Below, one piece after another: positions 451-10,897 of a stretch of 34,315 nt of DNA. The stretch covers positions 1-34,315 of IMG/VR virus record IMGVR_UViG_3300006810_000173; one strand, given 5' to 3'. The stretch is from a virus. The translations under genes were made by a program, and so were the position numbers. Every line of letters begins with the position of its first letter. Within the stretch, counting starts at the first letter, position 1. The notes below the pieces were generated by a model. The model saw only the letters and a program-made list of their open reading frames with translations. It was not told the DNA's origin and made no database searches.

Positions 451-1617
451 ATGATGGTTTATGGAAGCATTTGCTCCGGGATTGAAGCCGCCTCGGTGGC
501 CTGGTCTCCGCTGGGATTCAAGCCAGCGTTTTTCTCCGAGATTGAAGCCTTCCCCCGAGGAGTCTTGTCTCATCACTACCCATCAGTTCCCCTCAGAGGG
601 GATTTCCGGGAGATAGAAGGGAAGGAACATGGATCAATTGACATTCTCGTTGGTGGAACCCCCTGTCAGTCATTCTCAATTGCAGGAAAGCGAAAAGGAC
701 TGGATGACCCGAGGGGTGAACTTGCCCTTGAATATATCCGATTGGTTAAAAGAACAGTTCCCCGGTGGCTTGTCTGGGAAAACGTGCCCGGAGTCCTCAA
801 CAGTGGGGGAGGCCGAGATTTTGGTGCCTTCGTCGGGGCGTTGGCTCAGTGCGGGTATGGGTGGGCCTATCGAATTCTTGACGCTCAATTTTGCAGAGTG
901 GACGGGTTTCCCTATGCCGTGCCCCAGCGGAGGCGTCGTGTCTTCCTTGTTGGACATTCTGGAGGAGATTGGAGACGTGCCGCATCGGTACTATTTGACT
1001 CCGAAGGCGGCGGGGGGAATCCTCCGACGCGCCGAAGCCCGGGGGAAGAAACTGCCGGAATTCCTGAAGACTGTCCTTCTTCAGACAACCGAAGAGGTCT
1101 AGAAGGCACGGGGTTGGCAATTCATCAAAGTCAAGAAGGTTCCGTTAGATTGTCCCCCGTTAGCTATTGCCTTAAAACTGGCGGGGGCACAGTGGGGCAA
1201 GGCTATCAAGCCACTATTGAAGAGTTGGATAGGAAGGTCTCTCATGACCCAGCCTGTACAATTTTAGCAAACCAAGCCAAAGGCACACCTCGACCAGAGT
1301 CTTCCCACAACACCGTTGTTGTTGAAGCCTTCAACACTAGACAGGACCCTTTGATTTACGGGGAAATTTCTGGACCCCTAGACTTCCACCCTACTGGGAG
1401 TGTTGGGGTGTTCAGGGATCAAAGGGTTAGGCGGTTGACGCCGAAAGAATGCGAGCGTTTGCAGGGTTTTCCTGATGAATACACCCAAATTCCTTGGAAA
1501 GGGAAGCCCCCCCACCTGTGCCCTGATGGGCCAAGACTTCGCGCAATCGGTAACTCAATGGCTGTCAATGTTGTCAGGTGGATTGGGCAAAGAATCCAAA
1601 TGGTTGACCGACTGTGA
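451..1617 (+). CDS. DNA (cytosine-5-)-methyltransferase
   Basis: This enzyme transfers a methyl group from S-adenosylmethionine to carbon 5 of cytosine in a specific DNA sequence. All main C5-MTase motifs are visible: SICSGIEAA near residue 6 (motif I, phage variant), GGTPCQSFS at 68-76 with catalytic Cys72 (IV), ENVPG at 110 (VI), QRRRRVF at 149 (VIII), RLTPKECERLQGFP at 328 (IX) and GNSMAVNVV at 367 (X). The region 160-320 is the target recognition domain. The length (388) is normal and nothing is missing. It has no restriction partner nearby, so it probably protects phage DNA or alters expression. A second gene is nested in the +1 frame at 629-1102. Its last four bases (GTGA) hold the start of the glycosyltransferase. 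ATG at 454 is an equally possible start. Confidence 0.95.
   Translation: MMVYGSICSGIEAASVAWSPLGFKPAFFSEIEAFPRGVLSHHYPSVPLRGDFREIEGKEHGSIDILVGGTPCQSFSIAGKRKGLDDPRGELALEYIRLVKRTVPRWLVWENVPGVLNSGGGRDFGAFVGALAQCGYGWAYRILDAQFCRVDGFPYAVPQRRRRVFLVGHSGGDWRRAASVLFDSEGGGGNPPTRRSPGEETAGIPEDCPSSDNRRGLEGTGLAIHQSQEGSVRLSPVSYCLKTGGGTVGQGYQATIEELDRKVSHDPACTILANQAKGTPRPESSHNTVVVEAFNTRQDPLIYGEISGPLDFHPTGSVGVFRDQRVRRLTPKECERLQGFPDEYTQIPWKGKPPHLCPDGPRLRAIGNSMAVNVVRWIGQRIQMVDRL
629..1102 (+). CDS. protein encoded out of frame inside the methyltransferase gene
   Basis: This 157-residue frame lies wholly within the methyltransferase gene, shifted by +1. It begins with ATG preceded by a strong Shine-Dalgarno stretch (AAGGGAAGGA at 617-626). 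The product has protein-like composition: an N-terminal part with VEPPVSHSQLQESEKDWMTR, a middle with LVPSSGRWLSAGMGG and a C-terminal part with GDVPHRYYLTPKAAGGILRR. From memory, proteins with these blocks (KDWMTR, SGMGSPTE, GDVP.R.FLS.KA..GILRRAE.RGK.LP) recur in phages beside or inside Dcm-type genes; I cannot verify this here. The C-terminal basic helix suggests nucleic acid or protein binding. Function is unknown; an anti-restriction or methyltransferase-partner role is speculation. The dual coding covers MTase residues 60-217, including motifs IV to VIII. Confidence 0.7.
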   Translation: MDQLTFSLVEPPVSHSQLQESEKDWMTRGVNLPLNISDWLKEQFPGGLSGKTCPESSTVGEAEILVPSSGRWLSAGMGGPIEFLTLNFAEWTGFPMPCPSGGVVSSLLDILEEIGDVPHRYYLTPKAAGGILRRAEARGKKLPEFLKTVLLQTTEEV

Positions 1618-4292: not shown

Positions 4293-6920
4293 TTGCCGAG
4301 AAAAACAACCCCAAAGACAGGGGAAGCCGCATCTAAGCGCCCCGCCCCTGTAGGGGTAAAGAAGACTGCTTCAAAGAAGGCGGCTTCTAGGAAGATTGCC
4401 TCAAAGAAGACCGCCTTGGTGGGTGCGAAGAAGGAGAGGTCTGCTTCTGCTCACATCTCGGCAATTCTTGCGGGGATGGGCGGCGCCACCGGCCAAACGG
4501 TCGAGGTAACCAATCCTTATCTTCAGAACCCGGCAGTCTTCCGGGGAATTCAGATCATCGGCCAGCAACTATCACAGGCACCGCTTAGAGTTTACAAGGC
4601 TGGAGTTGCACAACCCAACTCACCCCTCCAGGTTCTCCTTGACCGACCCAACAACCTCCAAAGACAATCCCAGTTTGTGAAGACTATTTCGGCCCATCAA
4701 ATCCTCCACGGGAACGCTTACGTCTTCATTGATAGCCCCAACTCCCTCGGATATCCCCGCGCCCTCTTGCCTCTCTACCCCTCGACCATGGCGCCGGTCT
4801 TCGGGGATAGTGGTGGTTATGACTTGACCGGGTGGAGATATTCCCCCGAAGGCAGTGACAAGGCCAAGATCATTCCCCGAAACAGAATCCTCCATTTCCC
4901 CTATGGGGTAAACCCGGCTTCAGCCATCTTGGGGGTCTCCCCCTTGCGGGTTGTGAGTATGGCTTTGGACACAGACCTTGCAGCGTCCATCTACAACAAG
5001 AACGTCCTAGCCAACGCCGGGGTTCCTTCGGGAGTTCTCAGGTGGACGGGAGACGGGCCTTTTGATGAGGTTGACGCGGAAATTGTCCGGCAACAGTGGT
5101 TGAATACTTATGGCGGCGCCGGAACCTCCCCCGAAGGGGTTGCCGTTCTCTCTTCTAACTTCCAGTATGACTCCCTTGGAATCTCGGCCCGAGATATCCA
5201 ATGGAGTGAAGCAAGGAAGATCAACCTTCAGGAGATCGCACGGGCTTTGAATGTGCCTCTCATGGTTCTCAATGAATATGAGAACTCCGGTCTGTCAGAT
5301 GCGGGCCTCAAGGTTCAGTGGAAACTTTTACACGCCACAAACATTGGACCCAATGCGATTGACATTCAGGAGGTCTTGACGGAAGGGTTGACCTCGGTTT
5401 CTCAATTTGACATTGAAGTCAAATTTGATTTCTCAGCGGTTGACTCCTTGCAAGACTCCTTTTCCGAGAAGATCGACAATGCGCAAGGCTATATCAACCT
5501 TGGATATACCCGGAATGAGGTGAACCTCAAGTTTGATCTCGGGATGGAGAACACCCCCGAAGGGGACGTTAGACTTGTCCCTTCCGGCTTGATCCCCGAG
5601 AAGGCAGTCATTGACGCATGGAACACCGAAGAGACCCCCGAGGAGGTCACCCTTCCAGAGGCCCCCGAGGAAGAAGACCCAGAAGAAGAGTCCTTTGGGA
5701 GAGAAGAAGAGCATGACCCCGCAAGGGTCATTGCGGTCCTAGACCGAATCGGAAAGGGGATCACAACATCACAGGCTCGGGTTCTTCTCAAGAACATCGG
5801 CATTGAGCCTGAAGACGTTGAGATCCTCCTTTCGGACTATGACGTTGACCCGATTGTTCAGGCACCAGGTTTCTCTTCATCCCTACCAGAGGAAGAAGAC
5901 CGGGGGCTTCACCTTCATAGCGTAGACTTCAAGAGTTCCAAGTGGGACCTGGAGGATGCAAAGCGGTGGTGTTTGGACAATCAAATCAGAGGGGGAGAGT
6001 TCAAGGAAGAGGATGGGGTTCTCTCTTCGGTTGTCTGCTCTAAGGAAGAGTTTGTTTCTGGGTCCCTCAGAGTCTTTGACATTGCCGATGGGGTCTCGGT
6101 GTTGAAGGGACGGCTTCGGTCTGACTACATCGGGCAAGATGGAGAGTGGCAACTTCCCGAGTGGAGGGCAGAACTGTCCCGAGAGATGGAAGAGGCCCTT
6201 TACCCGCTAGAGAGCAAGCTCTTCAAGGCAATTCGAGGGTTCCACTACAAACTTCTCAACAAGATTGTCAAGTCCCTTGCCAGTTCTCCGGGGGCTAGGG
6301 CATTGGAAGACCAGACCCTCACAGACGAAGACCTTAAAGAAGTGGATAAGATTCTTGCCTCTGTCGTTCTTGCCTCTGCTGTTAGCTCAATAGTCATTGG
6401 GGGCTATGAGTCTGGTTATCAACTTGGCACGTCAATTGCAGTTGCTGCCGGATATCCAAACCCGAAGAACGCCAAGAGGCTTCCTCTTCTCTCTGATGCT
6501 TTTTACCGTTCCCGAGTCCCTTATTGGGACATCATCTCGGAATCGGTCAAAAAGTCCGTAATGGACTCAATGGTTGCTTCCTATACTGCTGGGAGCAACC
6601 TAGCGGACTCTATTTCAAGAGTGAAGAAGGCTTTTTCGGGCACTATCTCAACCGGGAGGTCGAGGGTGATTGCCCGCACCGAGTCAGGCATTGCTGCAAG
6701 CCTCTCCCAGATTGAAGCCTTTGAAGATGCCGGGGTTTCTCAGATTGAATGGCTCTCGGCTGGGGACGCAAGAGTTAGGAGAACCCATCAAATCGACGGG
6801 GAGGTTGTTTCGATAGGAGAGACCTTCTCAAATGGGTTACGGGGTCCCTTAGACGCTGGCGGCAAGCCAGAAGAAATCATCAACTGTCGGTGCTCCACCC
6901 GACCTGTGCGAAGGAGTTAA
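4293..6920 (+). CDS. portal protein fused to Mu F-like head morphogenesis domain
   Basis: This 875-residue protein combines two head proteins usually encoded separately. Residues 50-430 are an HK97-type portal (VTNPYLQNPAVFRGIQIIGQQLSQAPLRVY near the start), the ring through which DNA is packaged. Residues about 770-870 match the Mu gpF-like minor head domain, ending with the typical NCRC at 864-867. Between them lies an acidic linker (EEVTLPEAPEEEDPEEE) and a small domain beginning SSKWDLEDAKRWC, like one seen in other phage head proteins. Residues 1-50 form a Lys-Ala-rich, histone H1-like tail that may bind DNA. The TTG start is chosen because GGAG lies 8 bases upstream and no later start fits the tail. 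It is followed directly by the protease gene. Confidence 0.9.
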   Translation: MPRKTTPKTGEAASKRPAPVGVKKTASKKAASRKIASKKTALVGAKKERSASAHISAILAGMGGATGQTVEVTNPYLQNPAVFRGIQIIGQQLSQAPLRVYKAGVAQPNSPLQVLLDRPNNLQRQSQFVKTISAHQILHGNAYVFIDSPNSLGYPRALLPLYPSTMAPVFGDSGGYDLTGWRYSPEGSDKAKIIPRNRILHFPYGVNPASAILGVSPLRVVSMALDTDLAASIYNKNVLANAGVPSGVLRWTGDGPFDEVDAEIVRQQWLNTYGGAGTSPEGVAVLSSNFQYDSLGISARDIQWSEARKINLQEIARALNVPLMVLNEYENSGLSDAGLKVQWKLLHATNIGPNAIDIQEVLTEGLTSVSQFDIEVKFDFSAVDSLQDSFSEKIDNAQGYINLGYTRNEVNLKFDLGMENTPEGDVRLVPSGLIPEKAVIDAWNTEETPEEVTLPEAPEEEDPEEESFGREEEHDPARVIAVLDRIGKGITTSQARVLLKNIGIEPEDVEILLSDYDVDPIVQAPGFSSSLPEEEDRGLHLHSVDFKSSKWDLEDAKRWCLDNQIRGGEFKEEDGVLSSVVCSKEEFVSGSLRVFDIADGVSVLKGRLRSDYIGQDGEWQLPEWRAELSREMEEALYPLESKLFKAIRGFHYKLLNKIVKSLASSPGARALEDQTLTDEDLKEVDKILASVVLASAVSSIVIGGYESGYQLGTSIAVAAGYPNPKNAKRLPLLSDAFYRSRVPYWDIISESVKKSVMDSMVASYTAGSNLADSISRVKKAFSGTISTGRSRVIARTESGIAASLSQIEAFEDAGVSQIEWLSAGDARVRRTHQIDGEVVSIGETFSNGLRGPLDAGGKPEEIINCRCSTRPVRRS

Positions 6921-9075: not shown

Positions 9076-10068
9076 TTGAGGCTAGACTTCCGAGGATACC
9101 GAGAAGTTAGCCTCTTTGGGAACGCTCTTGGTTACCAGTATGCGTCTTCTTCCCTTTTCAAGGCACTAGAGAAGGACCCGGAAGTCACTCTCACCGAAGA
9201 CGCAGAGGTTGCAATTCATTTCTGCAACCCACAAGTCTTCAAGCCGGTCCCAAGCAAAAGGAATTTCCTCTTTACAATGTGCGAAACAGACCCAGCCCCT
9301 TCCTACCATGAAGACCCTTTCATCTATGGCGGCGCCTCTGGTCAGATTGTTCCTTCTAGGTTCTGTGATCGAATCCTTGCCCCGGTTGCGGCAAGGTGGG
9401 ACGTTCCAACCGCTATTTCTCCCCTTGGCTTTGACCCGGCCAAGCATCCCATAACCCCCCGGAGTTTTGACCCCCGAGAGAAGTTCAGGTTTCTCTGGGT
9501 AGGAGCCCCAAACGGAAGGAAGGGGGCAAGTCCCGTCATTCGGGCTTGGGATTTGGCTTTTCAGGGTCAAGACTGGTGCCACCTGACCATCAAGACAACA
9601 GACCCGAAGGGCGAGGGGAAGGTTTCTCAACTGTCCAATTCTGTGACCTTTGACTCTCGTTTTCTCCCTGCCGAGGAAATGTCTGCTTTGGTTGGAGAGA
9701 GCCATTGCGCCGTTCTCCCTTCTTTCGGGGAAGGCTTTGGACTCTGCCACCTGGAGGCCCTTGCCTCTGGCCTCCCGGTCATAACAATACAACACTCAGC
9801 ACCACCAGAGTTCCTCAAGGATGATGCCCTTTACTCTGATTTTGAGATGGTCGAGACAAAATCCTCAGACGGGGAAATCTTCCATGCTGCTCTTGCTGAC
9901 AGGGTAGACCTAGCCCGATCAATGGCACAGGTTGTGAAGGCTTATCCGAAGTGGAGCAAGAGAGCACTAAGGGGGGCGCGGCGCGTTCATTCTTCGATGA
10001 CCTGGACCGATGCCTCCAACAACCTCAAGGAAGCCATTGAGCTCCTGACCCAACGCCTCGATGATTGA
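9076..10068 (+). CDS. GT-B fold glycosyltransferase (GT1/GT4-like), second copy
   Basis: This 330-residue protein is a paralogue of the glycosyltransferase at 1614. It has FLWVGAPNGRK near 129, a stretch HLTIKTTD, and SFGEGFGLCHLEALASGLPVI with the E-x7-E donor pair at 219 and 227. The TTG start directly follows the preceding stop (TGATTG) and gives a family-like beginning (GYREVSLFGNALGYQYAS). It lacks membrane segments. It overlaps the GT-A enzyme that follows, so both are probably made together and may build the same glycan. The position between head genes and surface-protein genes suggests that the acceptor is a virion or exported protein, but nothing in the sequence proves it. Confidence 0.88.
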   Translation: MRLDFRGYREVSLFGNALGYQYASSSLFKALEKDPEVTLTEDAEVAIHFCNPQVFKPVPSKRNFLFTMCETDPAPSYHEDPFIYGGASGQIVPSRFCDRILAPVAARWDVPTAISPLGFDPAKHPITPRSFDPREKFRFLWVGAPNGRKGASPVIRAWDLAFQGQDWCHLTIKTTDPKGEGKVSQLSNSVTFDSRFLPAEEMSALVGESHCAVLPSFGEGFGLCHLEALASGLPVITIQHSAPPEFLKDDALYSDFEMVETKSSDGEIFHAALADRVDLARSMAQVVKAYPKWSKRALRGARRVHSSMTWTDASNNLKEAIELLTQRLDD

Positions 10069-10897
10069 GACCTCTATCATAGTTCCGGTTTTTGGAAGAG
10101 TTGACCTTTTGACAGGTTGTCTGAAGTCGGTAAGGGAGACAGTCCCCCCGGGGGTGGAGGTTATTGTCTCCGACGATGGCTCCCGAGAAGCGGAGGAGAT
10201 CCGGTCAGTTTCTGAGGAGTTCGGGGCGCGTGTTTTGCGGTCTCCCCTAAACAAGGGGTTCAGTGTATCTTGCAACTCTGCAATTGTTCAGGCTCAGGGT
10301 GAGAAGATTGTTCTCTTGAACTCCGACACGGTGGTCTTAGGGGATTGGCTCAGTCCCCTTCTCAAGTGGCTGGAGTGGGATTCTATCGGGCTTGTTGGCA
10401 ACCTTCAGTTGAAGCAAGACGGCACCACAGTTGACCACCTTGGAGTCTTCCCTAAGAAATATGAAGGGGCTGGAGGGCCAGCCTTCTCCCTTCAACATCT
10501 TTACCAAGGAGTTCAAATCTCCGAAGTCCCCGATGTTGCTCTTCGGGCGAAGATTGTTCCGGCAGTAACCGGAGCTTGCCTTGCCATGAGAAGAGACATG
10601 AGGCTTCTCTTCGATACTCGTTACCGCAACGGATATGAAGACATTGACCTTTGTTACCGGGTAAGATCGGAACATCGAAGACAGGTGGTCATTGAACCCG
10701 CTTCCAGAATTCTTCACCTCGGGAGTCAATCAGAAGGGCGTTTTGACCATGAAGCGGCAAACAGGGTGAAGTTTGGCGGGGATTGGTGGGAATTTGTGGA
10801 CAAGGACCCCAGCCTACAGGATGCAGTCAAGGCAGACCGCAACGGAGAACCCCGGCCAGTTCCCCCCACCTTCCCTCGATCAAGGTTTTCCCTCTAA
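10061..10897 (+). CDS. GT-A fold glycosyltransferase family 2
   Basis: This 278-residue enzyme has the marks of the GT2 family: the N-terminal strand TSIIVPVFGR, VSDDGS at 36-41, the metal-binding-like NSDT at 87-90 and GYEDIDLCYR at 191-200, a motif of rhamnosyl- and galactofuranosyltransferase-like members. It transfers a sugar from a nucleotide donor with inversion. No membrane anchor is present. Its ATG overlaps the stop of the GT-B gene by 8 bases. The last four codons end just before the promoter of the next gene, so this is the end of the small operon. Confidence 0.9.
   Translation: MIETSIIVPVFGRVDLLTGCLKSVRETVPPGVEVIVSDDGSREAEEIRSVSEEFGARVLRSPLNKGFSVSCNSAIVQAQGEKIVLLNSDTVVLGDWLSPLLKWLEWDSIGLVGNLQLKQDGTTVDHLGVFPKKYEGAGGPAFSLQHLYQGVQISEVPDVALRAKIVPAVTGACLAMRRDMRLLFDTRYRNGYEDIDLCYRVRSEHRRQVVIEPASRILHLGSQSEGRFDHEAANRVKFGGDWWEFVDKDPSLQDAVKADRNGEPRPVPPTFPRSRFSL

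Follow-up and report, generated by a model that had tools for sequence, protein, structure and literature searches.

At positions 629-1102 of the DNA analysed here, a second gene is almost certainly overprinted in the +1 frame of a phage C5-cytosine DNA methyltransferase gene, as judged from synonymous constraint, stop avoidance and a conserved start in homologous loci. The stretch analysed, referred to below as the window, is a virus record of 34,315 bases (positions 1-34,315). One stretch of DNA thus specifies two conserved proteins, and the arrangement is common to phages of very different bacteria, including P1. The hidden gene overlaps the catalytic motifs of an enzyme family that has been widely used in restriction biology, and P1 dmt contains it too. 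Annotation retains a single frame for each stretch of DNA, and nested genes therefore easily escape notice. Furthermore, methyltransferase genes of the nested type that were cloned or mutated also carried or damaged the hidden protein, and earlier results may therefore need re-examination.

Results

The host methyltransferase gene occupies 451..1617 on the plus strand, in frame 0, and encodes 388 amino acids (PF00145, E 2e-48; phrog_116, E 7.6e-85). The nested gene, on the same strand and wholly within it, encodes 157 amino acids from an ATG at 629 to a TAG at 1100-1102. A Shine-Dalgarno-like stretch, AAGGGAAGGA, is found at 617..626, and a +1 in-frame stop (TAG, 614..616) lies just 5' of that stretch, upstream of the nested start. 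The overlap spans motif IV, with the catalytic cysteine in PCQ at 661..669, as well as ENV and motif VIII (about 919-945) of the methyltransferase. The preliminary description had placed a 157-codon +1 frame wholly within the catalytic part of the enzyme, had given it its own ATG with a Shine-Dalgarno stretch and had quoted its C-terminal sequence, all of which proved accurate.

The methyltransferase gene is followed directly by a glycosyltransferase gene (1614-2633), with a 4-base overlap. Two further glycosyltransferase genes are found at 9076-10068 and 10061-10897, and the domains of the three genes are Glycos_transf_1 twice (with GT4-conflict similarity) and Glycos_transf_2. These genes may indicate that the phage DNA is modified and glycosylated. 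Elsewhere in the window (4293-6920), an 875-codon open reading frame encodes a portal protein (PF04860) fused to a Mu F-like domain (PF04233).

The length of the nested frame was rejected as evidence of coding, since an equally long +1 run arises in 13.5% of synonymous shuffles (n=200) of the window methyltransferase. This gene is prone to open +1 frames, so that length proves nothing in one gene and comparative tests are needed. For the window clade, 80 viral loci were gathered by the methyltransferase protein alone and 12 more by the nested protein. Nearly all of these loci, about 90 homologues, have a +1 frame of at least 155 codons at the matching place, and the block [FY][FY]LSxxACxGILRR is common to the +1 frames of about 90 related phage methyltransferases; most of the loci have only a short +2 frame. 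The column of the window ATG holds ATG, TTG or GTG in 72 of 89 homologues, compared with a background of 8%. A Shine-Dalgarno core, often AAGGAG, is located upstream of the nested start in 73/89 homologues, many of which also have a +1 stop 4-7 codons 5' of that start.

Synonymous sites of the methyltransferase are constrained over the nested span. In an alignment of 68 sequences with a mean identity of 59%, codon agreement relative to within-gene shuffles was 1.5-2.75 at codons 61-225 and 1.0-1.25 elsewhere. With methyltransferase-selected loci only, the codon-identity ratio was 2.09 inside the nested span and 1.16 outside; the shuffle null ignores ancestry, and the internal control is provided by the flanking parts of these genes. 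In these loci the constraint rises at codons 59-64 and is near background by codon 221. Two additional clades, relatives of phage P1 Dmt (the P1 clade) and of ORF13 of Streptococcus phage MM1 (the MM1 clade), were gathered by the methyltransferase protein only, and both show a block of constraint from near the nested start to the nested stop. The aligned +1 span is free of stops in 79/81 P1-clade and 62/70 MM1-clade copies, and most of the MM1-clade copies with stops are interrupted only past the conserved block.

Frame-0 third-position divergence inside and outside the span was 0.222 and 0.510 in the window clade, 0.052 and 0.176 in the P1 clade, and 0.273 and 0.503 in the MM1 clade. The least reduced divergence was at frame-0 first positions, which are the third positions of the nested frame, and this is the pattern expected of +1 coding. 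Inside the span, synonymous changes at fourfold sites that would lead to a +1 stop numbered 0 in the window clade against 261 expected, 0 against 18 in the P1 clade and 1 against 187 in the MM1 clade, in counts where pairs of sequences are not independent. Outside the span such changes were seen 414, 297 and 494 times in the window, P1 and MM1 clades, where 436, 254 and 425 were expected, respectively. Stops in the +2 frame were not avoided inside the span in the window clade (205 versus 157 expected). Fourfold changes in the window clade were also biased toward conservative +1 amino-acid changes inside the span (difference 0.27 ± 0.02) and not outside it (−0.02). This bias occurs outside the span as well in the P1 (0.14) and MM1 (0.13) clades, and the stop test therefore carries the weight in those two clades.

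A profile of the nested protein matched 256 loci in viral contigs and bacterial genomes. All 259 matches overlap a methyltransferase in the +1 relation, with no free-standing copy among them, and the catalytic motifs of the overlapped enzymes are intact in most cases. The hosts include Alphaproteobacteria, Acidobacteria, Nitrospirae, Betaproteobacteria, Lentisphaerae and Clostridia; nested copies are found in phages of Mycobacterium, Vibrio, Streptococcus, Caulobacter and E. coli, and the frame is present in hundreds of records of P1-like plasmids of E. coli. The nested gene is ancient and common; its carriers are phages as well as prophages of Proteobacteria, Acidobacteria, Firmicutes and Actinobacteria. 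The preliminary description had suggested a conserved dual-coding locus, had named a stop-free nested frame in homologues and lowered synonymous change over 629-1102 as the support to look for, and had stated that matching blocks recur near or inside Dcm-type genes of phages. The comparisons agree with it on each of these points: the frame is open in nearly all window-clade loci, synonymous change is reduced over exactly 629-1102 relative to the flanks, and the profile matches lie over methyltransferases in many phages.

Several individual loci depart from the simple arrangement. In phage Thibault (L489:1320-3121) the methyltransferase gene is interrupted by an HNH-endonuclease open reading frame, and gp104, annotated as a gene of its own, is the nested C-terminus. 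The first methyltransferase open reading frame of phage Bombitas (L490:1333-3216) is 475 amino acids long, possibly owing to an intein or other insertion. An MM1-clade methyltransferase (L418) contains a long insertion through which its own frame stays open while the nested frame is broken, and the conserved nested C-terminus is still present 3' of the insertion. In L096:2691-3807 and L009-L011 the methyltransferase is split into a catalytic open reading frame followed by one with motifs IX-X, and the nested frame is intact. Finally, one P1-clade copy, in a P1-like element (L276), has a nonsense codon in the GILRR block of the nested frame with the methyltransferase frame open, which makes it a candidate for a natural nested-null.

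A further large class of phage C5-methyltransferases (L495-L574), with GAPHRRDR at motif VIII, has a longer +1 frame that contains the blocks QLTLF..SPA..S, WPRSGTMRNG, PTPTASD and NPEWVEWLMGFPxGWT. The WPRSGTMRNG...PTPTASD family, which we take to be a 'hypothetical protein' family of the databases, was considered as a free-standing relative and rejected, as it is the +1 frame of this methyltransferase class and overlaps the enzyme in 80/80 loci. The class was gathered with the +1 peptide itself, which biases constraint within the query region; the EWLMGFP block, which lies outside the query, is also under synonymous constraint.

A methyltransferase tree was built on the segment up to motif VIII, with 41 ordinary methyltransferases included. 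The window, P1 and GAPHRRDR types form one clade without a non-nested member (SH-aLRT 99), and the MM1 types form a separate clade. The ordinary methyltransferases fall outside the nested clades, except for one long-branch row beside MM1. This topology fits one or two origins of the nested arrangement.

The C-terminal part of the nested protein (residues 107-157, encoded at 947..1099) is predicted to form three helices. In the AlphaFold2 model residues 121-157 have a pLDDT of about 92-97, the C-terminal domain modelled alone has a mean pLDDT of 81.5, and the N-terminal two thirds of the protein are predicted with low confidence. Neither the whole model nor the C-terminal domain matched a fold in the PDB at E<=0.001, the methyltransferase fold included, and profile searches of solved structures gave nothing convincing. 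Among viral models only a protein of mycobacteriophage Thibault, which is the nested C-terminus itself, and one methyltransferase entry were matched. Searches of Pfam, NCBIfam and PADLOC returned no relatives of the nested protein's own and no anti-restriction or defence family, the sole PADLOC match being a methyltransferase profile. By Pfam match and catalytic motifs the nested protein does not qualify as a C5-methyltransferase (PF00145), and likeness to methyltransferase profiles was seen only in a hinge-like segment of the MM1 clade.

This hinge-like motif reads SLLDILEEIGDVPHRYYLT in the window (941..1000, +1 frame) and is clearest in the MM1 types, CSLSDILEEEVDEKYFLSE. Many ordinary C5-methyltransferases carry a similar segment in frame, 26-29 residues past motif VIII, for example RDILEPEVDEKYTLSD, where it sits between motif VIII and the target-recognition domain; the frame-0 chains of the nested-type enzymes lack it. 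PADLOC methyltransferase profiles match MM1-type nested C-termini at the hinge position (best E 1.1e-5). A small profile of the ordinary segment was used to score real +1 products and products of synonymous shuffling. Median scores of the real products were 21, 7 and 5 bits for the MM1, window and P1 clades, and the 99th percentiles of the shuffled products were 10, 2 and 1 bits. Since real products score far above shuffled ones in each clade, the frame-0 protein does not force the likeness. On these scores it is strong only in the MM1 clade and weak in the window clade and P1. Both homology after a change of frame (a frame-swap by deletion) and convergence were considered as its source, and the data fit the two alike, since the DNA under the start of the block also encodes motif VIII.

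Some copies of the nested gene are already in the databases. The MM1 copy was deposited as ORF14, 'putative methyltransferase' (CAC48080.1; Streptococcus pneumoniae phage MM1), and the copy of S. thermophilus phage P0092 is gp45, annotated 'DNA methyltransferase'. No feature is annotated at the nested frame in phage P1 (AF234172), Roseobacter phage CRP-821 or Caulobacter phage DMCA. The profile of phrog_16143 ('DNA methyltransferase') matches MM1 ORF14 (E 5.3e-82) and a window-clade copy, L016 (E 5.9e-9), and gives a weak match to the window protein (E 0.0081). Judged by these profile matches, PHROG 16143 is probably the family of the nested protein. The methyltransferase label seems to be borrowed from the overlapped gene, because the nested protein has no methyltransferase domain.

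Discussion

What the nested protein does can be proposed only tentatively. It may well be an accessory subunit or regulator of the same methyltransferase that docks by way of its hinge-like C-terminus. Its translation would begin at a separate start within the methyltransferase mRNA, and one mRNA would thus yield both proteins together. The nested protein would then dock on the catalytic core beside the recognition domain and could tune the activity, folding or specificity of the enzyme. The preliminary description had offered an anti-restriction factor or a specificity partner as possible products, and the likeness of the C-terminus to a methyltransferase segment mildly favours a partner. The strict linkage to methyltransferase genes follows from the physical overlap and need not imply a shared job.

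The main rival, possible but rather unlikely in our estimate, is that the nested product is an independent effector, for instance in anti-restriction or anti-defence, whose only tie to the methyltransferase is a common mRNA and DNA. Phage methyltransferases counter restriction, and a second counter-defence protein on an early methyltransferase transcript would make sense. In phage SpSL1 the methyltransferases are part of an early operon (PMC6755750). Additionally, nested copies are retained in loci with an interrupted or split methyltransferase. Against an independent effector stand the lack of a free-standing copy among the 259 profile matches, the lack of a match to known anti-restriction or defence families, and a C-terminus that resembles methyltransferase sequence.

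A stronger form of the partnership, which we regard as improbable, is that phage C5-methyltransferases of the nested type are two-polypeptide enzymes encoded in two frames, in which the nested protein would supply the missing hinge in trans. Very unlikely is a programmed frameshift from the methyltransferase, which would make a shortened catalytic core that ends in a hinge-like tail, with no separate start. The hinge-like block does lie at motif VIII, the very place for a +1 shift to add it to the enzyme, but in all three clades constraint extends from at or near the nested start, about 100 codons 5' of the hinge block, and the nested start codon and its Shine-Dalgarno stretch are conserved. 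We give next to no weight to the idea that RNA structure, a DNA signal or codon usage in the methyltransferase causes the constraint and leaves the open frame as a by-product, for although the +1 frames of the window methyltransferase are often open by composition, the selection is frame-specific, with +1 stops avoided and +2 stops not, and in the window clade fourfold changes favour conservative +1 replacements inside the span and not outside it.

In the open full-text literature we found no earlier account of a nested gene that is conserved in methyltransferases of phages; the MM1 genome paper lay outside that scope and might hold a remark. The nested arrangement has been overlooked or mislabelled in phages, including the classic E. 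coli phage P1.

The closest known relatives are MM1 ORF14, P0092 gp45 and the members of phrog_16143, which have the position and frame of the window gene inside a C5-methyltransferase gene and share its C-terminal block, SLSDILE...[RK]YFLS. Unlike the window gene, they are labelled 'methyltransferase', their conserved nesting seemingly unrecognised, and the streptococcal copies are shorter than the window's past the motif. In contrast to the streptococcal copies, the proteobacterial phage copies that we looked at and the P1 copy are unannotated. Phage P1 dmt similarly contains a 157-codon +1 frame that begins at an ATG within its cytosine-methyltransferase part, with a matching C-terminal block and synonymous constraint. 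It differs in the position of the nested start (about 66,728 in AF234172, L257:3387), which is deeper within the gene, and in its middle part, and P1 Dmt has an additional adenine-methyltransferase part, unlike the window enzyme.

Nested and overlapping gene pairs are known from other systems. The lysis spanin gene Rz1 of phage lambda is nested in Rz in the +1 frame, and the two products act together. As in the window pair, a +1 nested phage gene shares the mRNA of its host gene; the proteins are unrelated, and in the window the host gene is that of an enzyme whose catalytic motifs lie within the overlap. In E. coli, the C5-methyltransferase gene dcm overlaps a second gene, the endonuclease gene vsr, in the +1 frame. 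Unlike the window pair, dcm and vsr overlap by only a few codons at the 3' end, and vsr lies mostly outside dcm.
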